Part shown: one piece after another, positions 650 to 23,645 of the stretch
Layout of the letters: each line of letters opens with the position of its first letter
Numbering within the stretch: position 1 is the stretch's first letter
Origin: a virus
Length of the DNA stretch: 23,645 bases
Virus record (IMG/VR): IMGVR_UViG_3300039109_000030
Location: 1 to 23,645 of that record
Direction: 5' to 3' (one strand)
Translations under genes and position numbers: made by a program
Notes under the pieces: generated by a model
Databases searched by the model: none
The model's input: the letters and a program-made list of their open reading frames with translations, nothing else
What the model was told of the DNA's origin: nothing

Positions 650-691
650 GATTTCCCCTTTCGGGGAGACCGTGGCAGGGTGGTGGAGTGC

Positions 692-701
692 CGCAACGCA
701 C
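692..701 (-). promoter_or_regulatory. Conserved decamer copy upstream of lysozyme gene
   Basis: Exact GTGCGTTGCG on the minus strand, in the 80-nt gap between the tail fibre stop (730) and the lysozyme ATG (649). It begins 28 nt after the stop and ends 42 nt before the start. It is one of seven copies in the window. A promoter or leader function is inferred from placement and orientation. Confidence 0.7.
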
Positions 702-729
702 CTCAACTACGGGCTTGGAATGGCGGGAT

Positions 730-2631
730 TTAGCAGCCACCCGAGCTAAGGCCACTATTTGCCACGACACCACCCGCAAATGTCGCTAACGTATTAATTC
801 CAGGGACAGAACCCGGAACTGCATTACCACTCGCGTTACCAAAAAAAGCATTGTTAAGAACGGACCACTGCCGCGCGGTGCCGAATGAGCCGGAGGTCGT
901 GAAGTTAGCATTTAAGCAACCAGTGGAATTGCTTCGCAAGGTAAAGATTTCACCGATGGTTAAACCAGCCCCGGCGATCAACGCCCCAGCAAAAGCGACG
1001 TTACTGTTATGGGCCGCGTTGACTAAACCGCCGGGAAGATTCGCTGATGCCGCGAATGTGACACCAGAATTAAAGTTTATTATACTTCCTTCATCGAGCG
1101 TGGCACCATAGTTCATTGTGCCCGCAATAATGAGCGGGCTTGCACCGACATTGATCTTACACTTGCTATCGCAAGACACGCCGTTATGGCCGACTGCATT
1201 ACCTTTGAGTGTGGTTCCCGCGTTAAGGTCCGCGCCGCTTTGCTGGTGGAATGAGATACCAACACAACCGGCGGTTCCACCTGTACAGTCCCACGTGATA
1301 TTTGTGGAGATCATGTAGGGGGCGAAGTCTGAAAGTTGAAGTACGAAACCAGCCGCTGGAGTAGTTGTAGGTTGAAGTATGGCAACCCCACCGTTGCCAG
1401 TTATGTTAATAACACTCGCGCCGACGAGCGGGCCAATTATGGACCACGAGCCAACAAATGTTTGGCCGCCGGTCGGAGAACATATCGGCTGAATGTTTCC
1501 GGCTAGATCATATTCAACCTGCAAAATAAAATAACAGGTCGCCATCGAATCCAAAGCGTTAGCTGCAGCGTTAGAAACAAACCCATCGTTAGTGGAACTG
1601 CCACCGTTATCGACAAGAAGTGTTGGCGTGAAAGCGGGATGAAAACGGCCGGGAATAACCCTTGCGGCCCATAGGCCGTTTTCGATTGCTACCGACACGC
1701 ACTGCTGCATGTAGAGGCGCCTGAAGATCGGATTCGGAAAACCGCTCAGCAGGACGGCGTGCGACGAATTGTTGTTGGGATTGCCGTTGCAAACCGATAC
1801 GACAGCATTTGAGGCAAAGCCGGTTACCGCGGGCAGCGTCACGGTGAACGGGCCGCCCGTCACGTAGATCGTCTTACCGGCATCTCCGGCAACGATCGGA
1901 TAATTGGCGGCCTGCGCATTCAGCGTGTTCGTATCAACACCGAGGGCGCCAAGGGCCGCCGGATTGACGTTGATGGCGGTAGGGTTAGCGCCGGTGAGAG
2001 TTATCGCCGTGCCGGCGATAAACGTCGATGACGGGATCGAAACGCAGTTGACCAGATTGCCGTTGCTATCGAAGCAGGCGCCTTGGCTCAGGCGATTGGC
2101 CTTGATCGGCAGCAGCGCCAGCGTTTCCCCTGGAGGCGCGAATACTCCCCGGCCGGTGAAATCGTTGGTCTTGTCCCAGAGCTCGCGCTGGGTCGCAATG
2201 ATGTCGGTGACAACCTGATTGACGTTGCGGGCCGATACGCCGGCGCCCTCGTTGAATTGCGATGTCCGCCGCGGACGGCGAGCGCCGACGATCTGCACGG
2301 TGCCGGTTTGGGCAGCGGTGAAGGTCAGCACCGCATCCGTGATCGGGCGGGCGATGAAGCCGAGCGAACCGGTTGGGCTGGTAATCGTCCAGTTGCCGGA
2401 TGCCGGGACCAGCGCACCATTGACGAACACCTCTAGCCAGTTGGCATAATCGGTGCTGTCGCCGTAGAGCGCAAATCCTACGCTGCAACTACAAGTGCTG
2501 GCCGTGAGCGAGTAGCTCGTTCGCCTTTCCGTATCGGGCAATGCAGGCACCGGCGGCGGTACTTGGGCGAAGGCCGGGAAAATACCGGCAGACAGCGCAA
2601 GGCTAAGGATCAGGCGGCGGATCAGGCTCAT
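730..2631 (-). CDS. Tail fibre/spike-like protein with apparent signal peptide
   Basis: Large 633-residue protein at the usual place of a receptor-binding fibre, between the ejection proteins and the lysozyme. Residues 1-22 look like a Sec signal peptide: two Arg, a hydrophobic core, then AFA|Q at a plausible signal peptidase I site. A Pro-rich stretch follows, then a beta-rich adaptor region that includes a helical segment (NQVVTDIIATQRELWDK). The C-terminal two thirds are Gly/Asn/Ser/Thr-rich with short hydrophobic repeats, as in beta-helical fibres. There are 14 cysteines, including the last residue. There is no convincing Shine-Dalgarno before the ATG, and an in-frame stop just upstream rules out a longer start. 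The 3' half is visibly less GC-rich than the 5' half. The enzymatic or receptor specificity is unknown; the fibre/spike call rests on position and composition. Confidence 0.7.
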   Translation of the reverse strand: MSLIRRLILSLALSAGIFPAFAQVPPPVPALPDTERRTSYSLTASTCSCSVGFALYGDSTDYANWLEVFVNGALVPASGNWTITSPTGSLGFIARPITDAVLTFTAAQTGTVQIVGARRPRRTSQFNEGAGVSARNVNQVVTDIIATQRELWDKTNDFTGRGVFAPPGETLALLPIKANRLSQGACFDSNGNLVNCVSIPSSTFIAGTAITLTGANPTAINVNPAALGALGVDTNTLNAQAANYPIVAGDAGKTIYVTGGPFTVTLPAVTGFASNAVVSVCNGNPNNNSSHAVLLSGFPNPIFRRLYMQQCVSVAIENGLWAARVIPGRFHPAFTPTLLVDNGGSSTNDGFVSNAAANALDSMATCYFILQVEYDLAGNIQPICSPTGGQTFVGSWSIIGPLVGASVINITGNGGVAILQPTTTPAAGFVLQLSDFAPYMISTNITWDCTGGTAGCVGISFHQQSGADLNAGTTLKGNAVGHNGVSCDSKCKINVGASPLIIAGTMNYGATLDEGSIINFNSGVTFAASANLPGGLVNAAHNSNVAFAGALIAGAGLTIGEIFTLRSNSTGCLNANFTTSGSFGTARQWSVLNNAFFGNASGNAVPGSVPGINTLATFAGGVVANSGLSSGGC

Positions 2632-2632
2632 G

Positions 2633-2651
2633 CCGGGAGAATGGCGCCCGG
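2633..2651 (-). other. Small hairpin in the tail fibre leader
   Basis: Arms CCGGG and CCCGG (2647-2651 and 2633-2637) with a 9-nt loop lie between the decamer copy and the tail fibre ATG. It occupies the place where a ribosome binding site would be expected. A role in translation control is only a guess. Confidence 0.3.
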
Positions 2652-2660
2652 AGGATCAGC

Positions 2661-2670
2661 CGCAACGCAC
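2661..2670 (-). promoter_or_regulatory. Conserved decamer copy upstream of tail fibre gene
   Basis: Exact GTGCGTTGCG on the minus strand, starting 2 nt after the stop codon of the 1470-residue virion protein and ending 29 nt before the tail fibre ATG. Inferred to start or control a separate tail fibre transcript. Confidence 0.75.
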
Positions 2671-2672
2671 CC

Positions 2673-5600
2673 TCAGTGGGTCGACTTGGTCGTCTCCGGC
2701 CAGTCGGTGCGGTTGAGCGGCTTGACTCCGAGATTTTCGTTCACGCCATCCTCGACATGATCGAATAGCCGGCGCACCGCGAACAGGTTTTGCAGGAAAA
2801 TCGCCTGCCTCATTTTATGGGTATCCATTGCGGTCCAAGTGCCGTGAAACGCATCATTCATGCCTCCCGCGATACCTTCCATTTTGGAATAGGTTGGTCC
2901 CAGCAGCTCGGAGAGCGCCCCGTTGGTCTGGCGTCTGGACAACGGTTTGTCGGCCCCGATCGCCTGGAACATATCGGTCTTGCCGCCGGTGAACTTGGCC
3001 TGCATCGAGTTGAGTTCGGTAAACCAGCCAAGGATGGCCGAGCGCGAGATACCCTCCTTGATCCAGTCCTGCGGTCGGTCGCTCACTGGCGCGCCAGACA
3101 ATAGGGTATAGGCCCGGTACGAGACCATGCCCATCCCGAGGCTCGCCACGAGTCCCTGAAGGGTGCGGGCATCCATCTGCTGCAAGTTCGAAATCAGCAC
3201 CTTTTCATGGGCGGCGGCGACAAAGGATTTGTATTGGCCGAGCAGCGAGACAACCGGCCCGGACATCCATAGCGGCTTCTCGGCGCCGGGCGTCAGGACT
3301 GCCATGTCGGCAGACCGACCGATCGCGGAGGTGAACACGTCGCGCGCCTGGGTATCGGTCCAGTCGGCGGTATTAGCGACATGAGTTCCCTTGCCGAACT
3401 CCTGCCCGCCGCCGTCCTTGTAGGCCGCCCAGATCCTGCCCGCCATGTTCTGGTCGATGCCGGCCTGTGCCATCCGCTGGACATCGTCCGCGGTGTGTGT
3501 GCCTCCAGCAATCCGCTCTGCCGTGCGCAGGAAGTCCGCAGCCGCAACGGTCCCAGCCACGGTTTTCATGCCGTCCGTCCATGGTCCGTGCAGGTTAAGA
3601 AGCATCGACTTGTCGGCCGCCCAGCCCAGTGCGCGCTCGAATTTCGATCCCGGCAGATGGTTGTCGATGACGTCGCCCCATTGATGCGACAGATGCCCGA
3701 TCGCAGAGTCGATGCCGACGCTCATGTCCTTCATCGACTGCCGCGACGCGGTGGCAAATCCGTCGCCCATGCCCAGCATAGACTTGAAAAACGGCAGGTA
3801 ACCGTCGCCCATGACGTTCATAAAACCGTGGCGATAGACGGCGTTGATCGAGTCCGTCATGCGGTTGAATACCGATGTTCCGAGGTCGGTGATCAGGTTG
3901 TAGTTGCGCGCGACGTTGGCGATGCGGGCTGCATTCGGTTGCGCTGCGGCAAGCTGATAGCCATAGATGCCGCGGATGCGATCGCGCGTCGCGGTTAGGT
4001 CTCGCACCATGGCCTTTTTCTCGGCGTCGAGATTGGTCTGTTGCTTGGTCGATTTGGCCTGCGCCAGCTTGGTATCGTACTCATCGTCCAGCTTGCGCAA
4101 CACGTCGGTCATCTCAACATCGCCGAAACGGTCGGTCAGGTGGATATCGGGAAGCGCGGAACGCAGATGACGGGCGATGACGTGCTCGGTGTCGGTGTTG
4201 ACGAAATCCTTGACCGACGCGGTCGGGATCGCGAAGTCGCGGGAATTGAGCGATCCGCGCACCTGCTGCGCATCCGAACCGAACGCCGACATGCCGCCGC
4301 TGGCGGTCTCATAGGGCAGCCGTCCGTCCGGCGTGGTATTGATCCGGTTGACAATCTCGGCGGCGCGGCCTTCCAGTTCCTCGCGGGACAGATCGCGGTC
4401 GGAGGCGATGATCTTGCGCACGGCCCGATCTACCGCACCATCCGCCCCGCTCAGACGATCTCCCGCTCCCTCATATGTCCCTTCCGCCATCTTCTGTTCG
4501 CGCAACTTCTCGGCCTCGCCGCGGACCTTGAGCGCAGCCTTGGCCTCCTGCGTAGTCTGCCCTTCCCAATCGGCAATTTCCTTTTCGATCTTGCCGCGCA
4601 TGGCCTTGGCGCTTTCCGTCTCGCGGATAAGCTGGTCCTCGAGATCGCCGATCTGCGCAGACCGACCCGACGCTTGATCCGCCAGCGTGTTGCCGCGCGA
4701 GCGGATTTTGCTTTCGAATACCGCACCGCCGCGGGCATTCGGGAGGTTCTTGCCCGGCACGTCGACACGAATGCCGCCATCGTTGCGGTACTGGCTTTCG
4801 CGCAGCTTCTCAGCGCGCTGATAGGCGAACTTGTTAAGCCTGGTGATTTCCTCCTGCCTGTCCTCGATGCCTTCCAGCGCATCGGTACGGCCCTGCAGCC
4901 GGGCTTCGATCTTGGCGATGGTAGCTTCGTGCGATTGCAGCGCACCATTGTAGGCCGTGATCCGCTCTTTCTGCGCCGCCTTGATCCCCTGCTCGCCCTC
5001 CAGCCAGTCGGCAAAAATCTTCTTTGCGCCGTTGTAATTGGCGGCCAATGCCTGCTTGTTCCAGACGCGCGGGAAGAACGACTTGTCGCCCTTCGGCGGC
5101 TCCAATTCCTCGCCAAGCATCGGCTTGCCGTCCGGCCCGGTGGTGCGCTGGGCCAGTTTTTTGATGGGATCGAGCACCTTGGAGCGGATTTGTTGGGCCG
5201 CCGACTGTACTTCGGGGATGGCGTGGACGTCGCCTGCAGTCATGGCGCCGGAAACCTCATCCTTGAACTTGTCGAAGGTGAGCTTGCCCGGAGCCTGCCC
5301 GCGCACGTCCTGAATACCGGCGGCGATGATCGGCGCGCGGCTGTCTGCGAGCTCGCGATATTGCACGAACTGGTCGCGCAAAATATGGCCGGCTTCCAAT
5401 TGGCCGTTGTGGGCCTGCATCTTGATGAGCCGGTCGATCGGCACCCCGCCGCGCGCCGTGGTAATGCCACTGTCGGATTGTGTGAACCGCAGCGAGGTTT
5501 CGGCCAGATCGCCCATCGCTCTCTTGGCGACTATTGAATCCGACGAGAAGATGCGCAACGTCGGGGAAAAGCCCATCATGACGCGGCTGGTATAGTCGAT

Positions 5601-7085: not shown

Positions 7086-10000
7086 CAGGGCTGCACCACG
7101 GCATCAGGATTGAACGCGCCGGCGGTCCGGGCGGCCACGGCGCGCGCGGCGTGGGCGGCAAATGCCTCCGAGGGGTCGAACCTGATGCGGCGCGGCTGGC
7201 CCTGGGAGTCCTGCATGGCGCCCCAGCGCCCCGTGGCGGGGTCCTGCAGCACGATCTGGTAGCTGGGCGGCTTCTTGTTGGCGATGTCGGTCTCGGTGAC
7301 CTTGTCCGGCACGATCGCCCGGCTCGCCATGAACTGGCGGGAAGCGAAAGCCCCTGAATCGCTCATCGGACTGGCGTAGCGCGGGCCCTGTTTCGGGCTG
7401 ACGCGCTCGCCCTCGAACAGCTTGCCGCCGGTCACGATGCCCATTTCGTGGTCCAATTGCTGACCGATCCAGTCGTGGGAGCCGGCGACCTCCGGATAAT
7501 ACCGTTCGGGCGCATTCGCCATCACCCGATTGCCGTTGGCGGGTGACAGCGCATATTTGTTGTTGAGCTTTTCTATCGCGAACTTGTCGGCCATCGTGGA
7601 GTCGCCGGTGGCGGCAAAGCCGTCCTTGTAATTCTTGTCGTAATCGGCCTTGAGTGCGCCGGCGGCGAGGCCATCAGGGGCAACGGGCGCGCGGGCGCCG
7701 GTTCCAATCGGGCCCCATCCGGTGGAGAACTTTGATACCACGCTGGAGGCCGAGACGTTCTTCAGTGCCTTGTCCGCAACTTCGGTCGCCGCTTTGAGAG
7801 CCGACGATTGGGCGGGATCGTATTGCCGCATCAGGCGCTTGGCGGCCTCGTCCGGCGGGTAGAACGCCAGATTGGACTGCCACGCCCGCAGGTCTTTCAA
7901 TCCGTCCGGAAACTCCTGGTCGAACTGCAGCGGGTTGTTGCGCTGCTGGCCGTCCATGAACGAATAGGCCGCATTCATCTTTACCGGATCGCCCGAGCGC
8001 GACATGCCGGTGACACTGTCCTTGAAGCCGCCGCCGTCGATCAGCCGCTGCATTTCGTCGGGTCGCAGGCCCTGCGCTATCTGACCGAGCACTTGCGCGC
8101 CGGCCGGGCCCTGCAAGGCTGCCTGCAGCTTCGGAACATCGTCTTTTTCCAACAGCGGCGGTGGCGGCTCGTGGTTCATGGCCCCGATGCGAACGCCTAA
8201 AGAGGCGCGCTGCACCAACGCCTGCGCAATGCCGTCCGGCTGTGACGGGTCGATCGGTGCCGCAGTCTGCTGCGTCCAGCCACGATTTGCGGCCTCCGCG
8301 TAGGGATGATCCTTGAGATTCTTGTTCGAATCTGTGACCTGTTTCAGTGCGGCCGCGGCGACGTTGATGTGGTGAACGTCCTGCCCGTCATTGGCGCGCT
8401 TATAGGCCTCGACGATCTGATCCTGCTGCTCCTGCGGAACTTGCGCAATCTGCTGGCCGACAAGTCGACCGTTCATGGTTTCGGCAGTCGGACCCATCTT
8501 TTCGGGGTAAAGCGCCGCGGCTTGGTTGACCTCGGCGACCGCGGCCGGTGACGGCAGGATGCCGTTATCAAGCGCCTTGCCGACCGCTTCCGCCGTCTGT
8601 TTCGCCGATTGGACGCGCAGCTCAGGGTCCTGCGCCAGCGTCCGCACATAGGCCGATAGCAGGAAGGGGTTTTGCTTCACATCCTCTGCTGTGAAGCCAC
8701 CGCGCCCATTTGCGGCCGACGACATGAACTGTCCCGCCGGCTGCCGCCCGCCGGGCAGCGACGACCATTGGCCGGACAGCGACGGCAGCACGTCAGCGGT
8801 CTGGCCGGATTTCAGCGTCGTCAACAGGTCCTTGCCGGTCTTGGCCTTGTATTCGGTCTGCGCCAGATCCCACGCCGCGGTATCCTGATTGGCCGGCGAG
8901 AAGTCTTTCAGGCCGAGCCTTGCCTTTTGCAAATCCCATGTCGACGCAATGAACTGGTAGCGGCCCGCCGCGCTCGAACTCTTGCCGACATCCGGTCCGG
9001 AGGTGATCGGCTCGGCAATGTGCGGATGGTCGCTGTAATCCCGAAACGTCTTGTCGCCGTTGCCGCCGTAGCGGACGTTGTAGCGGCCCGCGGATTCGGT
9101 CTCGGATATGGTGTTTAGCAACGCGCGCCCTTCCGGGGGAATTGCCTGATTGACCACGCCACCGGGTATGCCAAGCACTTCGGCCTTCAGTGCATCGGGC
9201 AGCGAGTTGACAGCGCGGAACTGCTGCTTGACGGCGGCGGCGGCGGTGATGCGCTGGGCGCCCTCGGTATCGCCGATCGCGCGAGCGCGCTGAATGGCCT
9301 GACCGATCGCCGGGTCCTCCGGCTTGATCGTGCCCTTGGCCAGACCTTCCTCCATCCCGGTCGTGATCTGGCGGTTGGCATCGATATTCATCTTGGCGTC
9401 GGCGGTCAGATATGCCAGCCGCGACAAGCCTTGCGTATAGAGCCGAGAGCGATCGACCTCGCGCAGGTTCGGGTTGGTAAGAAGGCTTTGCAATTCCGCC
9501 GCGGCCTGCGCCTTGCCGCGTTTGTTAAAGGTGGCATCGACGTGAGCGACCAGCGACTCGCCCTGCAGCAATCCAGCGGTGTTTTTCTTTTCAAGTTCGA
9601 TCTGATCTGGCGGTGTCTTGAACAGCGGATTTGTGCCGAGCGCGTCATACGACGCATTCATTTTTTGCACGGCCTGCTGGAATTCCGGCGTGTTGGTACC
9701 GCCCTGCCGCGCCAGCGCTATTGCGGTATTCTTCTGATCCTCAATGACGGCGGTGATCGACTTCTTTTGATTGACGACATCGTTCGAGGCGGTCTCATTG
9801 GTGATCGAGTTGAAGTGCTGGGTTTGCAGTTGATCGGCCTGCTGCATGATGGCCTGGCCGACCTGGCCATCGCCGTGCTGTTCGGCGTATTGGGCCTTCC
9901 ATGCATCTGATGCGGTCTTGAACCCGGCCGGGTCGGTCTGGTATTTCTGATGCATGTCGTTCATCTCTTGCGAGATGACGTTCGAATGCTGGGCGATGGT

Positions 10001-10815: not shown

Positions 10816-10827
10816 GATGCGATCCGT

Positions 10828-13290: not shown

Positions 13291-13298
13291 GGGTCACC

Positions 13299-13982
13299 TC
13301 AATTCGGGGTGCCCGTGCCGGACCAGCCATACGGCGTCTGCCGCCACGGCTTGCGGCTGCGCCGGATCGCGGTGTAGCGCGAATTGAAGATCGCCGTTTT
13401 CGGCTTCTGCATGTCGTGGCGGGCCTTGGCGTGATCGAGCATCGCCGTCGCCTGCTTCCACAGACTGCCGGCTTCTGCATAGTCGCGCTTGAGGCCGCGG
13501 TAGATGCCCGACATGACAGCTAGTTGCAGTACCAGCACCACGGTCGGCGTCGCGAACGTCGGGTCGGAGTTGGTCGAGAAGATGCCCTTTATCGTGACCG
13601 GCAATGGCGTGGTCGGCGGGTTCGGCGGCGGCGGGCCGCCTTGCGCGTTGACGACGATCTGGTTGTTGAAGATATCCCAGACACAGGGCACATCGTTGAG
13701 CCGCACCATGATCAGGTGGACGAGATCGGCGGGCAACGGATAGGCGGTGTCGAACTGATCGTCGTCGGGCTTGGTCGGCGACGGAACTAGCGTCCGCACA
13801 TCGGTCAGCCATGACCACGGATGATCTTCGCAGACAAAGGCCAGCGCTCGCTCATAGGCCGGCGAACAGGCGCTCCATTCCACCGAGCCATCATCGGCTA
13901 CGGCGACGAGATTATCGCCGGTCTGCGACAAGGCGCTGTTGATAATTTCGAGTTTGCCGAGTGGAAATTCGAAGCTGGCCAT
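13299..13982 (-). CDS. Tail adaptor / gatekeeper protein (tail tubular protein A, gp11-like)
   Basis: 227 residues from the ATG at 13982; a TTG at 14006 would add eight residues but is less likely, because GGAAGA sits 10 nt before the ATG. The protein has the pattern of the podovirus adaptor ring that joins portal to nozzle: an N-terminal helix with ALSQTGDN, then YERALAFVCEDHPWSWLT, AYPLPADLVHLIMVRL and a conserved Trp before the strand pairs. A Pro-rich loop (GGPPPPNPPTTPLP) interrupts it near residue 115. This is the first gene of the tail unit, 29 nt behind a conserved decamer and just after a strong terminator. Confidence 0.75.
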   Translation of the reverse strand: MASFEFPLGKLEIINSALSQTGDNLVAVADDGSVEWSACSPAYERALAFVCEDHPWSWLTDVRTLVPSPTKPDDDQFDTAYPLPADLVHLIMVRLNDVPCVWDIFNNQIVVNAQGGPPPPNPPTTPLPVTIKGIFSTNSDPTFATPTVVLVLQLAVMSGIYRGLKRDYAEAGSLWKQATAMLDHAKARHDMQKPKTAIFNSRYTAIRRSRKPWRQTPYGWSGTGTPN

Positions 13983-14011
13983 GCTGCACGTTCTTCCGGG
14001 TACCAATCACG

Positions 14012-14021
14012 CGCAACGCAC
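14012..14021 (-). promoter_or_regulatory. Conserved decamer copy upstream of tail operon
   Basis: Exact GTGCGTTGCG on the minus strand, 3 nt after the T-run of a terminator and 29 nt before the adaptor ATG. Any promoter here must fit in the roughly 40 nt between terminator and gene, or overlap the terminator hairpin. Confidence 0.8.
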
Positions 14022-14024
14022 CCC

Positions 14025-14054
14025 AAAAAAACCTCCCGGTTTGTGGCCGGGAGG
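14025..14054 (-). terminator. Rho-independent terminator ending the head gene unit
   Basis: On the minus strand CCTCCCGG pairs with CCGGGAGG (8 bp, short loop) and is followed by seven T. It lies 38 nt after the stop of the 216-residue gene. It is the only clear intrinsic terminator found within the minus-strand structural region. Confidence 0.85.
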
Positions 14055-14092
14055 CTGAAGTTTAGGAAGGTACGCTATGGCCTACAGGTGGT

Positions 14093-14743: not shown

Positions 14744-14757
14744 CTTCGTTCCCTTCG

Positions 14758-14973
14758 TTAGCGTCCGACGCTCAGCATTCCAGTTCCGTAAGAATAGGAA
14801 CCGACGTTGTTGTGGTTGCGATCGAGGATCGCGGCGGATGGTTTGCCCAGGGCAACGGCGGCTGCGACCTGATGCAGCATGTCGGCCAGCGCCGCGTTCT
14901 CGGAAATCGTCCGCTCGCCGAAGCTGGAGTTGGTGTTGATGGTGAGCGTGAATGCGCCGCTGGAGACTGCCAT
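14758..14973 (-). CDS. Small conserved phage protein
   Basis: 71 residues from the ATG at 14973, which overlaps the stop of the cement gene (TGATG). The frame is open to 15003, but the coupled ATG is the natural start. The pattern (FTLTINTNSSF, then a helix DMLHQVAAAVALGK, then AILDRNHNNVGSYSYG) resembles a group of small proteins found among phage head and tail genes that end in a DxNGNxVG-like strand. Function unknown; possibly a minor head component by its place between cement and head-end genes. Confidence 0.75.
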   Translation of the reverse strand: MAVSSGAFTLTINTNSSFGERTISENAALADMLHQVAAAVALGKPSAAILDRNHNNVGSYSYGTGMLSVGR

Positions 14974-15500
14974 CAGACGTCGATCCCTGCTCTGGAAATC
15001 CACGACGTCACGGCGACGCTCGGACCGGTCCCGGCCACAACCACATACGCCTTCAGATATCGGTAGTAGATGCGCTGCATCAGGTTGGTGAACGGGAATT
15101 GCAGGATCGTGCCGGCGAGGCCCGTCGGTGGAATGGTCGGCGTGGCGCCGAGGATGGTGGCGACGTAGCGGTTGGCGGCAAGCGCGGAGAGATCGTGATG
15201 GACGAGGGACTCGACATTTCCGTTGCCGAACGCTGCGTCATTGGATCCGAATAGCGAAAATCCATAGGTCTCGTCGGTCGTCACCATGTTGACGGCTGAA
15301 ATGTCGATGCTCCAGATACCGTCAGTGCGGCCCGCCGCGGACACCGGGCTGCCGCCGCCAAAGTCGACCAACCCGGAGTTCAGGTTGTTCAGATACCCGG
15401 TCGCGGTGATCGTCTGTGCGCTGCAGAACGCCGTCATCGCGTCGAACGGACACGGGAAGGTCGTGATCTGCGAGGGAATGAGATTTGCGGTCAGGGCCAT
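14973..15500 (-). CDS. Capsid cement/decoration protein, Bbp16-like
   Basis: 175 residues, directly downstream of the major capsid gene. The pattern fits the Bbp16 capsid cement family of Bordetella phage BPP-1: MTAFCSAQTITATGYLNNLNSGLVDFG near the N-terminus, SLFGSNDAAF in the middle, then IYYRYLKAYVVVAGTGPSVAVTSW near the end. Cement proteins of this type bind the outer capsid surface and stabilise it after expansion. A strong AGGAGA precedes the ATG by 5 nt. Family assignment is from pattern memory. Confidence 0.7.
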   Translation of the reverse strand: MALTANLIPSQITTFPCPFDAMTAFCSAQTITATGYLNNLNSGLVDFGGGSPVSAAGRTDGIWSIDISAVNMVTTDETYGFSLFGSNDAAFGNGNVESLVHHDLSALAANRYVATILGATPTIPPTGLAGTILQFPFTNLMQRIYYRYLKAYVVVAGTGPSVAVTSWISRAGIDV

Positions 15501-15509
15501 GGAAGTCTC

Positions 15510-16487
15510 CTATGCCACGATCGCGGCGTTGGTGATGGAGTCGAGGCGGGCTACCGCCTTCGGGTGTTCGCGGGCGAAACCGTAATCCCATTTGATATGC
15601 GTGGAATCGAACGGCTGGCCGACGGTCGGACCCTCCGCCATCACCGACAGCGGGGTCTGCTCGATGGCGTAGAAACCGCCGGGGCGGAACGAGACGCAGT
15701 AGATCGAGGACGTCACCGCGGAGCCACCGCCGGATGCCACTTCGGAGAACGGCAGCAGATCTGGCGAATCGTCGGGCTCATAGCCGTACAGGATTGGCAG
15801 ACCCTTGAACGCGGTGACCAAGCGACCGAAATCGTCCTTCTCGACAGTGATGGTCTGATTGACCAGGCTGTTGTTGCGCGCGGCGGCGTCGAATTGCGGC
15901 ATCAGTCCGCGCGGCACGATCCAGTGTGTCGGCTTGTTCACATGCCGATACAGGATGTCCATGTTGGCCAGCGACAGCGCGCCGCCGCCAGATGCCGCCG
16001 AATTGTGGATCTGGTTGCCGGTGATCGCTGTGGTGTCGAGGCAGCGAACCTGAATGCCGTTCGGGGTGCGCGGATTGGACGAGTTATCCGACTTGATGGC
16101 ATTCTGCGAGAAGAACTGCCCGAGCGCGATGCTCTTCAGCTTCTCCTGCTTGTATTTGCCTTCGGGTCCGAGCCGGTCGATCATGGCGCGGTCGGCGAAG
16201 ATGTAATCGTCGATGAAGTAGGTATCTTCCTCGCGCAGGTTGAAGGTGCCGAGGGCCTGCTCGCCGGCCTCGTTGAAGCCGCGGAAGGCGACGACGGGCA
16301 GCGAGGCAATGTCCATGTAGGCACGCTTGCCGCGTTCGGCGGGCAGGATCGGGATCGCCCGCATTACGTCGGACTCCTCGATCATGTTCTCGACGAAAGC
16401 CCGGGTCGGATCGTTGACATCGATCGACTTCGCATATTCGACGAAGTTGGTAGGTGTCGTGATCGTGGTGGTGAGCGAGACAGCCAT
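15510..16487 (-). CDS. Major capsid protein (HK97 fold, BPP-1 Bbp17-like)
   Basis: 325 residues, expected to build the icosahedral shell. It follows the scaffold gene and precedes a cement gene. Features include an N-terminal arm (TNFVEYAKSIDVNDPTRAFVENMIEESDVMRAIP), a helix-rich axial region, and a C-terminal part with SIYCVSFRPGGFYAIEQTPLSV and the closing DYGFAREHPKAVARLDSI. That closing stretch is typical of this podovirus capsid group. AGAGGG sits 8 nt before the ATG. A conserved decamer upstream of the scaffold gene probably serves the scaffold-capsid-cement unit. Confidence 0.85.
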   Translation of the reverse strand: MAVSLTTTITTPTNFVEYAKSIDVNDPTRAFVENMIEESDVMRAIPILPAERGKRAYMDIASLPVVAFRGFNEAGEQALGTFNLREEDTYFIDDYIFADRAMIDRLGPEGKYKQEKLKSIALGQFFSQNAIKSDNSSNPRTPNGIQVRCLDTTAITGNQIHNSAASGGGALSLANMDILYRHVNKPTHWIVPRGLMPQFDAAARNNSLVNQTITVEKDDFGRLVTAFKGLPILYGYEPDDSPDLLPFSEVASGGGSAVTSSIYCVSFRPGGFYAIEQTPLSVMAEGPTVGQPFDSTHIKWDYGFAREHPKAVARLDSITNAAIVA

Positions 16488-16501
16488 TTAAGTGCCCTCT
16501 G

Positions 16502-17326
16502 TTAACCGCGACGCCGCGCGGCGTTCTGGTCCTGTGCCTGACGGCGTTGCTCGAAACTCATCTTTTCGAAACCGGGAATGCCCTGCGTGTCTGGTGCCGC
16601 GCGGTGCGACTGCGAGAAGTTCGCGGTGCCCTGTGTCGCAAGCTTCTGCATAATCTTTTCGTAGAACCGCAGATGTGCGTCCGTGACGAGCGTTGCCTTG
16701 ATCGGTGTTGCGTCGGCCTCGCCGACTTCGCCGACAAGCCATTTGCCGACCACGTCGACGCGCTGTCCGGCATTGGTTCCAGCCTTGGCGATTTCCGCCT
16801 TCGCGCGCGCGGCAAAGGCCACATCGTTCTGGGTCATGAACTCAGCGAGAATGCCAAGCCCTTCGGCAAATTCCGGCTGTCCTAAGCCCTTTGCGTTCGC
16901 CCAAGCGCGATACTTGGCGAACGCCGGATTTGTCTCGTCGATCTTGAATGCGATGCCGTCAGGTAGTTGAAGATCGGCAGGAAGCTCGGCCTTGTAACCC
17001 TCTGGCGGTGGCACGCTAAGGCGCTTGAGTTCGGCAGCGGCCTGCACGGTCTTGAGTTCGTTCCGCTCTTTGTACTCAGTTGCATATTCTTCCGGCGTGA
17101 CCTTGAGCGCGTTTGCCGTCGAGTCCCAACGATCGTCGGGAATGCCTTCAGGTCTGTTCGTCGATATCTGGGAAATCGTACCCGGCGACGCGGGTGTGGG
17201 GCCCGATGCGGCGGGTTGAGCCGGGCTCGCCGGAGACGCGGACGGCGCGGGGGCTGGGGACGACAACGGGCTGCTCACTGCCGCCGGGGCCGATGCTGGA
17301 GCCTGTGATACCGCTTCGTCCGCCAC
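16502..17326 (-). CDS. Capsid scaffolding protein
   Basis: 274 residues from a GTG start (AAAGGG lies 11 nt upstream). Residues 1-50 are low-complexity Ala/Pro/Ser. The body is helical and charged (RWDSTANALKVTPEEYATEYKERNELKTVQ...). The C-terminus is Gln/Arg-rich and basic (FEQRRQAQDQNAARRR), suited to contact with the acidic inside of the procapsid. Placement directly before the major capsid gene is typical. Its first 179 nt overlap the 3' end of the Bbp19-like gene in another frame. No protease motif was noticed. Confidence 0.75.
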   Translation of the reverse strand: MADEAVSQAPASAPAAVSSPLSSPAPAPSASPASPAQPAASGPTPASPGTISQISTNRPEGIPDDRWDSTANALKVTPEEYATEYKERNELKTVQAAAELKRLSVPPPEGYKAELPADLQLPDGIAFKIDETNPAFAKYRAWANAKGLGQPEFAEGLGILAEFMTQNDVAFAARAKAEIAKAGTNAGQRVDVVGKWLVGEVGEADATPIKATLVTDAHLRFYEKIMQKLATQGTANFSQSHRAAPDTQGIPGFEKMSFEQRRQAQDQNAARRRG

Positions 17327-17540
17327 TTTCGAAAATTCCCTTTGCCATGACCGAGATCAATTTCGCCGCGAAGGTGCGTTCGCCCTCGTCTGATCGCAAC
17401 GCACCGTCAGTTGGCGCGACCGAAATCGACATCAGTCGGCGTTGCAGAAACACGTACAGCGCAGCCCCGTCGGCGGTGCGCGCGATGCGGTCGATAGCCT
17501 CGATACAGAACTTGTTGGTGGGGTGAACTTCATCGGTCAT
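17148..17540 (-). CDS. Bbp19-like phage protein, 3' end overlapping scaffold gene
   Basis: 130 residues. The ATG overlaps the portal stop (ATGA), which argues for a real coupled gene. Residues 10-70 carry a pattern seen in the Bbp19 group located between portal and scaffold in BPP-1-like heads: TADGAALYVFLQRRLMS, a short loop, then SDEGERTFAAKLISVM. Residues about 72-130 are low-complexity (Gly/Pro/Ser/Arg) and lie wholly inside the scaffold gene in a different frame. The tail may be conserved by chance of the overlap rather than by function. A decamer copy lies inside the gene and encodes G46-A-L-R49. The biochemical role is unknown. Confidence 0.65.
   Translation of the reverse strand: MTDEVHPTNKFCIEAIDRIARTADGAALYVFLQRRLMSISVAPTDGALRSDEGERTFAAKLISVMAKGIFESGGRSGITGSSIGPGGSEQPVVVPSPRAVRVSGEPGSTRRIGPHTRVAGYDFPDIDEQT
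17395..17404 (-). promoter_or_regulatory. Conserved decamer copy upstream of scaffold/capsid genes
   Basis: Exact GTGCGTTGCG on the minus strand, 68 nt before the scaffold GTG and inside the Bbp19-like coding sequence. Its position upstream of the genes needed in highest amount fits an internal promoter-type element. Confidence 0.7.
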
Positions 17541-19156
17541 GCGGCCGGTCCCGGTGCAGCCTCGCCGGGATCGCCGACATGGCGGGCGCCGGCGAGCTTC
17601 GCCATCTGGTCGGTGGCCTTGGCAACTTCATCGACCGAACGCAGCACCAAGAGATCGCCGGTTCCGGTTTCCTTGATCCACGCTTCCATGGACTTGCGGC
17701 CATCGACATTCATCTTGAATTCTTCCGGGAACATGCCGCCGAGGGTTTGCGCGGTGTTGGCGGCCTCTGCGATGGCCTGCAATTTCGCCGCAGCCTGGGT
17801 CGGATTGATCGGCTGGGTCGAGACCGCGCGGCCATCAACCTGCACCGGCGCAATCGCGCTTGATTTTTCCAACAGGTATTTGAAGCGAATGAAAATCTGC
17901 GCCAGGTCGCGCCAGAACGGCATGCCCGGGGTGCCGATGCGACGCTGGGCGCGCGCGGCCTCGTCGAGCCATTGCGCTCGGGTCGGCGGGGTATCGCCGC
18001 TCTGCTCGGGCAGGTCGACGTAGAACAGCTTGCGCAGCTTCTTCAGCTTGTCCTCGTAGGCGTAATTGCCAACCTGCGCCGGCGGCGCCGTGTAGATGTT
18101 CTTGATCGCGCCTTCGTGGCCGGGCTCGATCGGATAGGCCATGCCGGATTCGAAGCCCTGCTCGACTGACGAGAAACTGAAACTCGGGAATGTCACCGGC
18201 GGGCGCAGCGACAATTCCATGTTCTCCCCTAACATCAGTTCGGCCTCGTCGATCTGGCGCAGCGACGGCAAGCCCTGCAGCAGCGGGCCCAGGCCGAACG
18301 GCGAATCCGGGGTCGGGTTGAAGCGGCCGACCCACAGCGGGCAGCAGCCCTCGCCCTTGATCACGACGTCATGGACGAGATGCTGGCCGCCCTCGCCGAT
18401 CATGACGACGTGCTGCCAGGTCTCGTCGCCCTTATCCTGCCACAGCCGCCAGAAGCCCCAGATCACGACGGTTCTTTTTTTAGGGCCCTCCTCGATTTCC
18501 TTGGCGACTTCGGGGCTAATCTTGGCCCAGATTTCCTCTCCGACGAGTTCGCGGACGTTGACGTTGCGGGTGTGACGCACGGCAAAGCGGTCGTCGATAT
18601 CGCCGTAGGGGCCGAGGTTGATTTCGAGCTCGCGCAACGGAATCGCGGAATTGGTGATCGGCGCGTTGGCGTGCGGTCGCTCGATCCACAGCCCGACGGT
18701 GCCGATCGACAGGTCCGGATAGAACGCTTTCGGCACTTCAGAATAGAGGTTCGACGCCTTCATGGCGTTGAAGATCGCCTTGTCGTCGTTCCTGATCTGC
18801 TTCTCGACCTTGGCCCAGACCGCGCCCTTCTCGCCGCCGGGCAGGTCCATGCCGGGTCCGCGCTTGCACCATGGCTTGTCCGGCGACATGAAGCCGTTGA
18901 CAACCTCGGTGACGAAATCGCCGCAAAGAATGAAGGCTTCATCGGTATTGAGATCGCCGGCGTCCTGAATGCGGACTGTCGTGTCGGACGACGACGACGA
19001 ACTCAATGCGCGCTGGCGGTGCGGCGAGGAGAAAAAATAACACTCCCGGAAATCCATTACCCACTGGGTTTTCCAGGCGCGGCAAGCGGCGAGCCGGTCC
19101 TTGGACTCCTGCTCGAGCGGACTGACGGCTGTTTCTTTCGGGGGCGCCTTGGCCAT
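17537..19156 (-). CDS. Portal protein (head-tail connector, podovirus type)
   Basis: 539 residues, the usual size for T7/BPP-1-type portals, which form the 12-mer at the packaging vertex. An N-terminal helix and a Ser run (six Ser near residue 55, from a GAC-type triplet repeat) come first. The wing region follows, with DEAFILCGDFVTEVVNGFMSPDKPW, then FNPTPDSPFGLGPLLQGLPSLRQIDEA and a helix ending LEKSSAIAPVQV. The C-terminus is Ala-rich. The ATG overlaps the stop of the preceding 68-residue gene (TGATG), and the stop overlaps the next ATG. Family call is from motifs, length and context. Confidence 0.85.
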   Translation of the reverse strand: MAKAPPKETAVSPLEQESKDRLAACRAWKTQWVMDFRECYFFSSPHRQRALSSSSSSDTTVRIQDAGDLNTDEAFILCGDFVTEVVNGFMSPDKPWCKRGPGMDLPGGEKGAVWAKVEKQIRNDDKAIFNAMKASNLYSEVPKAFYPDLSIGTVGLWIERPHANAPITNSAIPLRELEINLGPYGDIDDRFAVRHTRNVNVRELVGEEIWAKISPEVAKEIEEGPKKRTVVIWGFWRLWQDKGDETWQHVVMIGEGGQHLVHDVVIKGEGCCPLWVGRFNPTPDSPFGLGPLLQGLPSLRQIDEAELMLGENMELSLRPPVTFPSFSFSSVEQGFESGMAYPIEPGHEGAIKNIYTAPPAQVGNYAYEDKLKKLRKLFYVDLPEQSGDTPPTRAQWLDEAARAQRRIGTPGMPFWRDLAQIFIRFKYLLEKSSAIAPVQVDGRAVSTQPINPTQAAAKLQAIAEAANTAQTLGGMFPEEFKMNVDGRKSMEAWIKETGTGDLLVLRSVDEVAKATDQMAKLAGARHVGDPGEAAPGPAA

Positions 19157-19362
19157 CAGCGGATCGCCATCGGTGCGGCGGCGGGCGCTGCCGGGAGCGA
19201 GCCTGCACTACCGAGCGCCAGGCGGGTGCCGAAGCGGGCCATCAGCGAGGCGGTGTCGCCTGCGGCCTGCCCCTGCAGCGCCATAACCTGATCGTTCTTC
19301 GCCTGCGCCTGTTCGGCGGCGAGGTTGGGATCAGGGGCTAGCTGGGGCTGGTCGGCTTGCAT
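19156..19362 (-). CDS. Small Ala/Gln-rich protein before portal
   Basis: 68 residues from the ATG at 19362, with GGTGGAG about 12 nt upstream. An ATG at 19383 would give 75 residues and put the decamer 32 nt before the start, but no ribosome site is seen there. The sequence is an Ala/Gln-rich helix ending in GDTASLMARFGTRLALGSAG, a pattern that seems recurrent in small proteins just before podovirus portals. It overlaps the end of the 145-residue gene and is coupled to the portal by TGATG. Function unknown. Confidence 0.65.
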   Translation of the reverse strand: MQADQPQLAPDPNLAAEQAQAKNDQVMALQGQAAGDTASLMARFGTRLALGSAGSLPAAPAAAPMAIR

Positions 19363-19768
19363 CGTCGCGGAGGACTCCACCATTCGCGACGAGATGGCGG
19401 AAAAGCGCGTCGGGCCGCAACGCACTACAGCGGATGCCGATCAGGTGGGAGACCGCGGTAGTGCAGAACATCCCGAGCCGCATCCACGGCAGATCGTCCT
19501 TGACGTCGATCGTGACCGTGGCATTTCCCTTGATGATGGCGGCGACGATGGCTTGTGCGCCGGGCCCGTCGACCAGCACCTTCAACGAGGTTCGGCGAAA
19601 CCCGACATCATATACCCACCACTGGCCGAGCTCCGGTATCCACGCCAGCGCCGAGACATGCTTGAAGTGTCCGAGCGCGATCAGACGGAAGAACAGATGT
19701 TTCGACTTGCGGTGAAACACCACGGTCCAGCGCGCCGCCTCGATCCCGAATGCGGGGATCTCACGCAT
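19331..19768 (-). CDS. Conserved phage protein with His/Cys pattern of a permuted papain-like fold
   Basis: 145 residues from the ATG at 19768, which overlaps the stop of the 54-residue gene. The frame is open to 19810, but that start would run deeper into the neighbour. Near the N-terminus is HFKHVSALAWIPELGQWWVYDVG (H34/H37), and later FCTTAVSHLIGI (C102) with RPDALFRHLVANGG. This order, a His before strands and then a Cys at the start of a helix followed by a small hydrophobic helix, resembles circularly permuted NlpC/P60 (YiiX-like) enzymes. If so it could be a protease or amidase. The match is to a pattern only, and the protein may be non-catalytic. It has only a poor ribosome site and probably relies on coupling. 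Confidence 0.7.
   Translation of the reverse strand: MREIPAFGIEAARWTVVFHRKSKHLFFRLIALGHFKHVSALAWIPELGQWWVYDVGFRRTSLKVLVDGPGAQAIVAAIIKGNATVTIDVKDDLPWMRLGMFCTTAVSHLIGIRCSALRPDALFRHLVANGGVLRDDASRPAPASP
19416..19425 (-). promoter_or_regulatory. Conserved decamer copy upstream of portal unit
   Basis: Exact GTGCGTTGCG on the minus strand, inside the 145-residue gene, where the triplets AGT GCG TTG CGG encode S115-A-L-R118. It ends 53 nt before the 19362 start (32 nt before the alternative at 19383). Confidence 0.7.
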
Positions 19769-19925
19769 CAGGACTGAGCAAACGCAATTCGGCAACGCGG
19801 CGCTTCGCATCTAAAATTTTATGAACTGGATGCAGAAATTTCTCCGGCATCCCCATTTCGATCAACTTCCGGCGCATTTCCATTTCGAAAAACTTTATCG
19901 GAAACTGAATAATCTGTGCTGTCAT
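19761..19925 (-). CDS. Small basic protein coupled to large terminase
   Basis: 54 residues. GAGGAGGG sits 7 nt before an ATG that overlaps the terminase stop (ATGA), so it is very likely translated. The sequence (MTAQIIQFPIKFFEMEMRRK, then MPEKFLHPVHKILDAKRRVAELRLL) is amphipathic and basic, with no family recognised. The stretch is less GC-rich than the terminase before it. Possibly a packaging accessory; function unknown. Confidence 0.75.
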   Translation of the reverse strand: MTAQIIQFPIKFFEMEMRRKLIEMGMPEKFLHPVHKILDAKRRVAELRLLSPDA

Positions 19926-21469
19926 GCCTTCACCCTCCTCATGCTCTTGCGCCGGTTCCATGTCTGGATCGGTTTCATCGGCGCACTTCCCATCGTCACC
20001 GCCCGGCCCTCGCCACCGCCAAGGATACCATTTTCGAACGCTTCGCAGATATGGCTGTACTGGTTTTTTTCCGGCTCGTCGGAATAGCGCTCGCCGGACA
20101 CCCGCAACCGCCGCATGAAATAGCCGCCACTCATTCCCGTGATGAAGGTGGAGCAGCGCGGGTCGACCAGCAGCGACGACGGCCGCTGCCCGCCGGCGGA
20201 CCGGCGCATCAGCACGGCGTTGACCGCCTCCCAGCGGATCGAGTGCTGGTTCTGCGGATTCGGCGCCGGCAGCACCCGCATGCCATGTTCGTTGAAAATC
20301 ATGAATGGCGTCTTGTCGGTAGCCTGGCCGCGGTGCTGGCCGGCCGGGTCGCCCCAGAAGTTGAACGTGAAGCCGGGGTAGTGCTGGGCCAGGAAGCCTT
20401 TCAGCAGCGGCGCAAATTCCCCGGCCTGCATGTCCCTGCCGATATATTCGTGCTGGATAAACCAGTCGCCGCGCAAAAACTGCCCGATCGCCGCCGCCGG
20501 CTGCCGCCCGAAGTCCAGTCCCACCACCACCGGGATCCCCGGAATAATCTCGAGCGGGCGATCGCTGACATGCACGTCGCGGCGGAACTGCGGATAGACC
20601 GGGTTGCCGTCGGTCACCACCGACGAGCGGTTCATAATATTGGCGTCGATCCATGATTTGGTCTTGCCGGCGATCTTCTCATCGTAAAACTTCGGCGGCA
20701 AATATTTCAGGTTCTCGGCATTCGGGTTCGGCACATAGCCCAGCATCTTGCCCTTGTCGTCGAACCGCTCCAAAAGCCCCGGCGGCTGCATGAAAAATCC
20801 CCAGTTCGCCGGCCGCTTCAGCGCATTGCGCTTTTCCTCGGTCATCCAGTCCGGCGGCGGAACGTCGCCGCGCATGATCGGCAGCCAATGATCCGCCGGC
20901 GGCGCGTTGGTATCCGCGATCAGTCCGCCCCAGGCGCAACCGCCATCCTTGACCGCCGGAAACCGCGGCGGCGACACGCGCCCAACCGCCTCCGAGAAAA
21001 CCTCGTACTGCGCGAACTGCACCTCGTTGAACCAGATCAGCGACGTCTCCAGCGACATGAAAAACGATTTGGCGTCCCGGATGTCCTCCATCGCCACAAA
21101 CGTTACATCGAGCTCCAAGGGCCCGACCCTGACCTCATGCCGATACGGCCGCGTCTCATAGAAAATCCCGAACTCCCCAGGCCGCGTCCCCGGCCGGAAC
21201 CAATCCTTCCACGTCGGGATCGTGGTCTCCTCCAACTTCGCATACGTCTCGCGGAAAATATGCACCCGGAACCGCTGCCGCCCATCCCGCTGCGCCGGCT
21301 GCTCCAGCGCCCGCTGGAAAATATGCAGGCAACACGCCGACGACGTCCCGGATCCCTGCGGACCCTGAATGATCTTCACCCGGGAAGTCTTGTCCCGCAT
21401 GAACTCCCGCAGCACCTCACCGTCAGGCCGAAATATCGGGAACCCCGTGGTCGGGTCATGCTCGATCAT
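19922..21469 (-). CDS. Terminase large subunit (packaging ATPase-nuclease)
   Basis: 515 residues; the motor that pumps DNA into the procapsid and cuts it. The P-loop is at residues 36-43 (GPQGSGTS), the Walker B-like SLIWFNE has its acidic residue at E149, and the coupling region has LIADTNAP near 183-190. The RNase H-type nuclease shows acids in GLDFG (D319), FWGDPAG (D374) and VDPRC (D436), plus SHICEAFEN near 472. The canonical Walker A lysine is replaced by T42; K32 just before the loop might substitute, as in terminases with a shifted lysine. The ATG overlaps the stop of the 67-residue gene (ATGA). Packaging type (cos, pac or terminal repeat) cannot be told from this. Confidence 0.9.
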   Translation of the reverse strand: MIEHDPTTGFPIFRPDGEVLREFMRDKTSRVKIIQGPQGSGTSSACCLHIFQRALEQPAQRDGRQRFRVHIFRETYAKLEETTIPTWKDWFRPGTRPGEFGIFYETRPYRHEVRVGPLELDVTFVAMEDIRDAKSFFMSLETSLIWFNEVQFAQYEVFSEAVGRVSPPRFPAVKDGGCAWGGLIADTNAPPADHWLPIMRGDVPPPDWMTEEKRNALKRPANWGFFMQPPGLLERFDDKGKMLGYVPNPNAENLKYLPPKFYDEKIAGKTKSWIDANIMNRSSVVTDGNPVYPQFRRDVHVSDRPLEIIPGIPVVVGLDFGRQPAAAIGQFLRGDWFIQHEYIGRDMQAGEFAPLLKGFLAQHYPGFTFNFWGDPAGQHRGQATDKTPFMIFNEHGMRVLPAPNPQNQHSIRWEAVNAVLMRRSAGGQRPSSLLVDPRCSTFITGMSGGYFMRRLRVSGERYSDEPEKNQYSHICEAFENGILGGGEGRAVTMGSAPMKPIQTWNRRKSMRRVKA

Positions 21470-21669
21470 TTACCGGACAGCTCAGTCCCCGGCACCAGCC
21501 ACGTACTTGATGATGGACTCGCGCCTTCAAACTTATCCTCAGGGCGGTAAAACCGCCGCAAATCCGGATGGTTGATTACCGGATCGTTCGTGTAGTCCAC
21601 AAACCGCCCGTCAGGATCCGGAACTACGAGCGATTTTTCCTTTGGCCAGTTCCAAAACCAAAATTTCAT
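21466..21669 (-). CDS. Small protein upstream of large terminase
   Basis: 67 residues (MKFWFWNWPKEKSLVVPDPD...), with a perfect AGGAGG 5 nt before the ATG and an ATGA overlap with the large terminase. The N-terminus has four aromatic residues in seven, then a Pro/Asp-rich stretch, and it ends STWLVPGTELSGK. No family recognised. The ribosome site and coupling make it a confident gene of unknown function. Confidence 0.8.
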   Translation of the reverse strand: MKFWFWNWPKEKSLVVPDPDGRFVDYTNDPVINHPDLRRFYRPEDKFEGASPSSSTWLVPGTELSGK

Positions 21670-21848
21670 GGCAACCTCCTAAAGGTTTGAAAAATAATCG
21701 GGAGGGGGTAACGGGAGCTCGCGCGGCGAGACCTCGATTTTCCCCCCGGCCCTCCGCTGGCTGGATCCCCAGGGATGGTCACCCGGCGCCGCCGTCCATC
21801 CGTATCAGCCATGTGACTATCAATCATGTGGTCAGTATACCTAACCAT
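21666..21848 (-). CDS. Doubtful 60-codon frame between terminase subunits
   Basis: An ATG at 21848 opens 60 codons ending in an ATGA overlap with the 67-residue gene, like most junctions here. Against it: the product is low-complexity (Arg/Gly/Ser/Pro), there is no good ribosome site, and no fold is recognisable. It fills the 193-nt gap 21670-21862, where no terminator or decamer is seen. It may be a real small gene or a leader. Confidence 0.3.
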   Translation of the reverse strand: MVRYTDHMIDSHMADTDGRRRRVTIPGDPASGGPGGKSRSRRASSRYPLPIIFQTFRRLP

Positions 21849-21862
21849 CTGTCATCACTGCA

Positions 21863-22333
21863 TTATACCGCATCTATAACCTTGTGTGTGGGCACTGTGT
21901 GGACAGTTCGCGCCCCAGGCTCTGGACTGATGTCCACCACGTATCCTGCAGTTATGTTCATGTTTACAGATACTTGCGCGTCTGCGGATGGCTTGATGCC
22001 GGCAATGGCTGCGATGTGCTTCGATACGTCGGCGCTGACGTGTTCCGACTCGGCATCGATCAATTCAATGAGCCTGGCTGACGCTCGAAGACCACCAATT
22101 GCGATGATTTCGCGCATCCTTCGAGCGATAAACACCTGTATTTGCGGTTTCTTCAATTCGCGTGAGAGATGGGATTCGCTCATTCCGGCAAGCTTTGCGG
22201 CCTCTCGTTGGCTGACGCCCTTGGTGGCGAGGTTGGTGAGAACTTGCTGCATCCGCTTTGAGATGGGGCGTTCTTTGACGACTATTTGCTCGGCTTCGGC
22301 TGGAATTGGCGAGATTGGTTTCATTCGAGACAC
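21863..22333 (-). CDS. Terminase small subunit (HTH DNA-recognition protein)
   Basis: 156 residues from a GTG at 22333; an ATG at 22324 (153 residues) is the alternative. CAAGGG lies 3 nt before the GTG and 12 nt before the ATG, so the start is undecided. An HTH sits at about residues 38-60 (KGVSQREAAKLAGMSESHLSRELKKP). Next comes a helical region (FIARRMREIIAIGGLRASARLIELI), then SKHIAAIAGIKPSADAQVSVNMNITAGYVVDI, which is typical of small terminases that form rings and bind the packaging site. It precedes the large terminase unit. A decamer copy lies 107 nt upstream. Confidence 0.75.
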   Translation of the reverse strand: MSRMKPISPIPAEAEQIVVKERPISKRMQQVLTNLATKGVSQREAAKLAGMSESHLSRELKKPQIQVFIARRMREIIAIGGLRASARLIELIDAESEHVSADVSKHIAAIAGIKPSADAQVSVNMNITAGYVVDISPEPGARTVHTVPTHKVIDAV

Positions 22334-22440
22334 ATGCCCTTGTTGGTCTCGCTCGCTGCGGGCGGTCGCCCTTGCTTGCTAGAGAAAGGCACGCGCGCAA
22401 TGCGGGACGCGCGGGATTGATGGGCGGTTTGGATTTGGAT

Positions 22441-22450
22441 CGCAACGCAC
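22441..22450 (-). promoter_or_regulatory. Conserved decamer copy upstream of terminase genes
   Basis: Exact GTGCGTTGCG on the minus strand, 107 nt before the small terminase GTG. It is the first copy encountered by leftward transcription and so could drive the packaging genes. Confidence 0.7.
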
Positions 22451-22514
22451 CGTGGACTTATGCAGCATTGGCGGGCATTGGGGCGGGATTGACGCTGCTA
22501 CAGGTTTGATAGCA

Positions 22515-22524
22515 GTGCGTTGCC
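22515..22524 (+). promoter_or_regulatory. Decamer copy (one mismatch) facing right, before HTH gene
   Basis: GTGCGTTGCC on the plus strand: nine of ten bases of the motif, and the only copy in this orientation. It lies 30 nt before the GTG at 22555 of the only rightward gene nearby. The orientation switch with the direction of transcription is the best evidence that the element acts directionally. Confidence 0.65.
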
Positions 22525-22554
22525 GGGTCGAAATTGTCGCTTTACGCTCGTAAA

Positions 22555-23633: not shown

Positions 23634-23645
23634 GTGCCGCCTTCC

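Follow-up and report, generated by a model that had tools for sequence, protein, structure and literature searches.

How is the ten-letter word GTGCGTTGCG, which recurs ahead of the phage modules in a 23,645-base IMG/VR virus fragment (IMGVR_UViG_3300039109_000030), used by the virus? The whole fragment, referred to below as the window, carries a T7-like structural module that is transcribed leftward and contains terminase, portal, major head protein, tail tubular protein, internal virion protein, fibre-like, and endolysin genes. The best explanation is a phage-specific late promoter: the word would form its -35 region and be read by a phage activator of the XRE type, with the host RNA polymerase acting at a -10 element. 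This explanation is considered probable.

Copies of the word in the window and in related viruses

Six exact copies and one copy matching at nine of ten positions (GTGCGTTGCC) are present in the window, and the coordinates and strands given for all seven in a first-pass annotation, made from the letters alone, were confirmed. About 0.09 exact copies are expected by chance on both strands under a mononucleotide model; the earlier value of 0.05 had assumed uniform bases, and the rarity stands. The copies had been described as heads of phage modules, which holds, except that those at 17395-17404 and 19416-19425 sit within the upstream coding genes (17148-17540 and 19331-19810, respectively). When the window was scored for the combined -35/-10 element described below, the seven sites took ranks 1 to 7 (26.4 down to 18.2), and the next score was 13.7.

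Approximately 70 related loci were collected from portal, major head protein, and terminase large subunit (TerL) scans, and 18 contigs were fetched whole (G numbers denote genomes, L numbers loci). Nearly all genomes had 5-10 copies of the eight-base core GTGCGTTG; the late strand held almost all of them, and the early half had few. The first-pass annotation had proposed looking for random copies elsewhere and for loss of the motif in relatives with the same gene order. The sites were located almost only in the late halves of complete contigs, with few in host DNA, and the motif was retained at the same places: before the terminase small subunit (TerS) gene, in the 3' part of the pre-portal gene, within a pre-scaffold gene of 130 amino acids (aa), and before the tail tubular protein A gene. 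The exact word was observed in 45-57% of cases per slot, compared to 1-4% in the null. In most genomes tested, including the GenBank phage Mwe-JY08, the word or its genome-specific variant was among the top over-represented 9- or 10-mers. No description of the word as a phage element was found among the literature matches listed, and no paper was found for Mwe-JY08.

The flanking bases at -1, +8, and +9 differed between genomes and were concordant among the sites of one genome, the word being preceded by T in G013 and by C in G018, and reading GTGCGTTGTG in G015 and GTACGTTG in G020. Agreement of this kind is to be expected where site and reader co-evolve. Two of the slots lie in coding sequence. 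The reading frame of the word differs between relatives in the pre-portal gene, and all 29 of the 29 distinct sequences of the 130-aa gene have TTG as the Leu codon, although TTG makes up 11% of Leu codons; the varying frames and the constant TTG argue that selection acts on the nucleic acid and not on the protein. In one group of relatives, the 130-aa gene has GCG replaced by ACG (Ala to Thr), which preserves the GTACGTTG variant of that genome.

The word series was absent from the distant contig G017, where the repeated 9-mer is a tandem repeat; a 27-base unit in five copies stands at the contig start (L101, 17-133). Burkholderia phage BcepC6B, whose TerL is distantly related, carries TAGCTACC as two repeated pairs and a further single copy, which were rejected as a late-promoter series. 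The members of each pair are 12 bases apart (L120, 1272-1291 and 25248-25267; single copy at 25480-25487), and they may be operator or iteron sites.

The -10 element

All offsets were counted from the first G of the word. A simple logo of 74 sites displayed the word only, with neither -35 nor -10, because the -10 element floats over three positions; a scan for TATAAT and TTGACA found nothing. Splitting the sites by slot gave hints of an A near +29 and a T near +33. De novo search by expectation-maximisation on 135 non-redundant sites returned the hexamer CAYNNT (C.74, A.87, T/C, N, N, T.78), with its first base at +27, +28, or +29 and a log-likelihood of 196 (33-52 in shuffles). The pattern A-N3-T, with A at +28, +29, or +30, was present in 62% of sites for the three positions together, compared to ~2.5% per position elsewhere, and the hexamer scored above 2 at the CAYNNT offset in 131 of 191 sites (16-59 at other offsets).

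The full element is GTGCG[TTGCGR]-N16-18-[CAYNNT]. With TTGCGR taken as the -35, the spacer is 16-18 bp, and the features of a bipartite sigma70-type promoter are found in it: a -35 with TTG, a -10 with A2 and T6, and sigma70 geometry. A -10-type hexamer accompanies seven of the seven window copies. The flanks had been described as sharing no -10; in fact, each copy is followed at a fixed distance by a hexamer whose second base is A and whose sixth is usually T. The reading of GTGCGTTGCG as the extended -35 region of a putative phage-specific late promoter is well supported by these patterns.

The TerL profile detected prophages in Bradyrhizobium sp. Arg816 and one metagenome-assembled genome. 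In Arg816 (9.7 Mb), 39 exact copies of the word were counted, seven of them in the prophage region, and these seven share one orientation. Across the genome there are five matches to the full bipartite pattern, one of which is in the prophage, and a common host promoter was rejected on this count. A host sigma factor could still read GTGCGTTGCGR-N17-CAYNNT alone, with no phage activator, and the TTG and 16-18 spacing match the Bradyrhizobium RpoD consensus, TTG-N16-18-TATA (PMC4842269). However, the host chromosome contains few instances of the pattern, eight near-invariant bases are more than sigma region 4 usually demands, and the concerted genome-specific variants imply a phage-borne reader, which makes this an improbable alternative.

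Start codons and terminators

An ATG opening an open reading frame of at least 80 codons was located at +39 to +42 in 72/191 sites, whereas most other offsets had 0-6 such sites. Relative to the -10, this is ~5-8 bases downstream, where the transcription start site (TSS) is predicted, and the mRNA would there start at AUG. A Shine-Dalgarno 4-mer preceded 8% of the +39 to +42 starts, 14% of random positions, and 62-63% of other late genes, most of which have such a sequence. An ATG at the predicted TSS without a Shine-Dalgarno sequence points to leaderless mRNA, and many late mRNAs are predicted to begin at the start codon. The pattern is seen in the window at the fibre (2631), tail tubular protein A (13982), 75-aa pre-portal (19383), and HTH (helix-turn-helix; 22555) genes, and in the independently annotated Mwe-JY08, two starts fall at +40 (25555 and 36866). 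The 29-nt distance to the start noted earlier recurs and is not arbitrary: at this spacing the start codon falls on the predicted TSS. We infer from this geometry that transcription starts at the predicted sites. Leaderless starts are documented in Bradyrhizobium, where 320 start sites are 0-10 nt upstream of start codons (PMC4842269).

At the tail tubular protein A gene, a terminator hairpin and T-run finish a few bases before the word in 14/20 relatives (T-run at random positions, 2.4%), and the next RNA probably starts after the word. This bears on the alternative that the word acts in late transcripts as an RNA element, such as a translation enhancer or a processing or antitermination site. 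The word is nearly always on the sense strand and near starts, as such an element would be, but the terminators finish a few bases before it, both the distance between -35 and -10 and the position of the start codon on the predicted TSS agree with transcription initiation, and the leaderless-type starts have no Shine-Dalgarno sequence. An RNA element is thus very unlikely.

Candidate regulator

Promoters of a single-subunit phage RNA polymerase, as in T7, were considered for these T7-like structural genes. The T7-type polymerase domain (PF00940) had no match in 16 records (T7 control, 1e-109), and in the two contigs whose open reading frames were listed completely, the longest non-structural ones reach ~350 and 414 aa, much too short for a polymerase; this alternative is extremely unlikely. 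Of the roles first proposed for the word, a phage-specific promoter core at late modules agrees with the results, and a phage RNA polymerase as its reader does not. Sigma region 2 (PF04542) was also not detected in 16 records, with positive controls. Small sigma region 4-like proteins were found in G008 and G019 and shorter HTH matches elsewhere; they are not universal. The stand-alone proteins of this kind are encoded in the early regions (L081 ~15868-15972, L082 ~1923-2027, and L111 ~7930-8013), and G008 additionally has a LuxR-type HTH protein of 74 aa adjoining the XRE gene.

The XRE family is encoded directly before TerS. Its members are ~170-190 aa long and consist of an XRE-type N-terminal half and a basic helical tail; the best structural matches of the N-terminal half were HipB and P22 c2, with weak E-values and high probability. 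The family profile matched in all genomes that carry the motif and extend to the locus, including Mwe-JY08 (weakly in G013, G014, G015, and G018), and in G017, which has no word series, only the N-terminal half of the protein is present. When single XRE proteins were used to scan viral sequences, all matches were to contigs already in the sample. Late activators are usually encoded at the end of the early region, beside the terminase genes. The XRE-type protein before the terminase genes is the likely reader of the word, as judged from its position and distribution.

In the proposed mechanism, host RNA polymerase with a primary sigma70-type factor would read the -10. The XRE-type protein, as the product of the last early gene before the terminase genes, would most likely bind the invariant 8-base -35 word and recruit the polymerase, thereby turning on every structural and lysis module at once. 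Several observations weigh against this proposal. The XRE homologue is weak in G013 (E 0.5) and modest in G015 and G018 (~2e-5), and the tie between the XRE gene and the motif is one of association. The window stops at 23645, before the XRE gene, which is placed by analogy with the relatives. Strong conservation in the -10 is limited to two or three bases, and some sites (TerS, HTH) have a weak version of it. A second conserved HTH gene (22555-22872) could also be the reader; it is less likely in this role, as Mwe-JY08 yielded no homologue of it and the gene carries a palindromic operator-like repeat of its own.

The same protein could instead be a repressor that, like the HTH protein in a variant of this idea, occupies the -35 of the late promoters and silences the prophage, as at the operators and stoperators of mycobacteriophage L5. 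Integrase-like genes were assigned by inspection in several contigs, and together with the prophages they indicate that the group is most likely temperate. The temperate lifestyle fits this idea, the XRE fold is typical of repressors, and the asymmetric word is oriented with transcription like the L5 stoperators in the excerpt of PMC9283540. According to the same excerpt, however, L5 sites are spread genome-wide, including short intergenic spaces. Sites of this type would occur in the early region too, and the present sites are nearly confined to late genes. The word is also fixed relative to the -10 and often to the start codon, and the candidate gene is in the usual place of a late activator. 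An operator function is therefore unlikely, and we infer that the regulator is an XRE-type protein acting as an activator, not a repressor.

In a more specific version of the activator proposal, the XRE-type protein would replace the sigma region 4 contacts at the 8-base -35 word, forming a takeover system with about seven late promoters, many of them leaderless, and with the promoter and XRE family shared by other integrated elements of Bradyrhizobium. This version is possible, if rather doubtful.

Other integrated elements and module exchange

Bradyrhizobium chromosomes yielded XRE relatives in two multi-motif prophages (Arg816 and G213) and also at eight loci lacking T7-like genes (L152, L153, L155, L157, L158, L160, L161, and L163). 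In the eight loci, the word, as GTGCGTTG, is inside the XRE gene, in two reading frames and mostly with a fitting -10 (chance ~1% per gene). In some of them, an upstream gene encodes a phage-type primase or an AAA ATPase, and the downstream side carries two small genes together with a gene resembling a beta-helix tail spike. They are possibly phage satellites or remnants.

The window and L012 (311-5700) are 99.6% identical over 5.4 kb downstream of the TerS promoter copy (22450 leftward) and unrelated upstream. The break falls exactly at this copy, which suggests that the promoter is also a module-joining place; such a break at the motif was observed in 7/113 comparable pairs.

Features of the window

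The positions of promoter elements and genes are collected in Table 1. The inverted repeat at the HTH gene is the same or similar in the relatives G021, G003, G012, and G015, and it is probably an autoregulatory operator of the HTH protein.

Table 1. Predicted promoter boxes, transcription starts, and genes in the window.
Feature	Position	Strand	Remark
-35 box, lysozyme promoter (GTGCGTTGCG)	692..701	-	exact copy
-10 box CACGGT, spacer 16	669..674	-	predicted TSS ~662; short leader, ATG 649
-35 box, tail-fibre promoter	2661..2670	-	exact copy
-10 box CATTCT, spacer 16	2638..2643	-	predicted TSS at A of ATG 2631; leaderless
-35 box, tail tubular protein A promoter	14012..14021	-	exact copy; three bases past intrinsic terminator T-run
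-10 box GAACGT, spacer 17	13988..13993	-	predicted TSS ~13981-13982, at ATG; leaderless
-35 box within gene 17148-17540, ahead of scaffold gene	17395..17404	-	exact copy
-10 box CACCTT, spacer 17	17371..17376	-	predicted TSS ~17364
-35 box within gene 19331-19810, ahead of small pre-portal gene and portal	19416..19425	-	exact copy
-10 box CATCTC, spacer 18	19391..19396	-	predicted TSS ~19384, adjoining ATG 19383; leaderless
-35 box, terminase small subunit promoter	22441..22450	-	exact copy
-10 box CATCAA (weak), spacer 17	22417..22422	-	predicted TSS ~22410
-35 box GTGCGTTGCC, divergent HTH gene promoter	22515..22524	+	9/10 copy
-10 box TACGCT, spacer 17	22543..22548	+	predicted TSS 22555, at GTG start; leaderless
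Perfect inverted repeat CTTTACG-CT-CGTAAAG, covering -10 and GTG start of HTH gene	22540..22555	+	
Small HTH protein gene, 105 aa	22555..22872	+	
Terminase small subunit (TerS)	21863..22333	-	
Terminase large subunit (TerL)	19922..21469	-	
Conserved gene with internal late promoter	19331..19810	-	
Small pre-portal gene, 75 aa, predicted leaderless	19156..19383	-	
Portal (T7 gp8-type head-tail adaptor)	17537..19156	-	
Conserved gene with internal late promoter; in relatives, promoter nearly always 136 bases from gene start	17148..17540	-	
Putative scaffold gene	16502..17326	-	by position, between portal and major head protein
Major head protein	15510..16487	-	
Tail tubular protein A-like	13299..13982	-	
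Tail fibre-like gene	730..2631	-	no PHROG match
Endolysin (lysozyme)	2..649	-	

Significance and comparison with known systems

The proposed element would provide a readable late-promoter code for widespread, almost uncharacterised temperate soil podoviruses, with a candidate regulator and a host genome (Bradyrhizobium sp. Arg816) named. It predicts that major particle proteins, among them tail fibre and tail tube, are translated from leaderless mRNAs, which makes phage leaderless translation testable in alphaproteobacteria. The code may also be used to locate start codons, operon heads, and prophages, and it marks a place of phage-module recombination.

Mycobacteriophage start-associated sequences sit just before the start codon. 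The analogy first drawn with them is weak, as the word is ~39 or more bases from the start and the -10 lies between. The operators and stoperators of L5 are likewise short asymmetric words in many copies, oriented with transcription; they are repressor sites, and the excerpt of PMC9283540 describes no -10 or start codon at a fixed distance from them. Thermus phage phiYS40, as far as it is cited in PMC4842269, also has leaderless mRNAs, and its promoters have an extended -10 TGnTA motif, whereas the specificity here is in the -35. The RpoD promoters of Bradyrhizobium (PMC4842269) share the TTG, the 16-18 spacer, a -10-like box, and leaderless starts in the genus. They differ in that the -35 is here extended to the nearly invariant GTGCGTTGCGR, the -10 is CAYNNT and not TATA, and the element is nearly confined to phage late genes.

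On the activator side, we propose a likeness to GafA and GafY/GafZ of gene transfer agents (PMC9638019, PMC11150451), in which a dedicated DNA-binding protein recruits host RNA polymerase to a -10/-35 promoter of an alphaproteobacterial phage-type late operon. Those activators act at the promoter of the main gene transfer agent cluster, and about seven dispersed copies are present here. In the middle promoters of T4 (MotA box and sigma70 -10; sigma appropriation by AsiA/MotA; PMC7403470), a phage box likewise replaces the -35, and the -10 geometry of host sigma70 is retained. The box sequence and host group differ, no homologue of MotA or AsiA was noticed (none was looked for), and the genes are here late ones with many leaderless starts, but by analogy the late promoter may work in the same way, with a phage box at -35.

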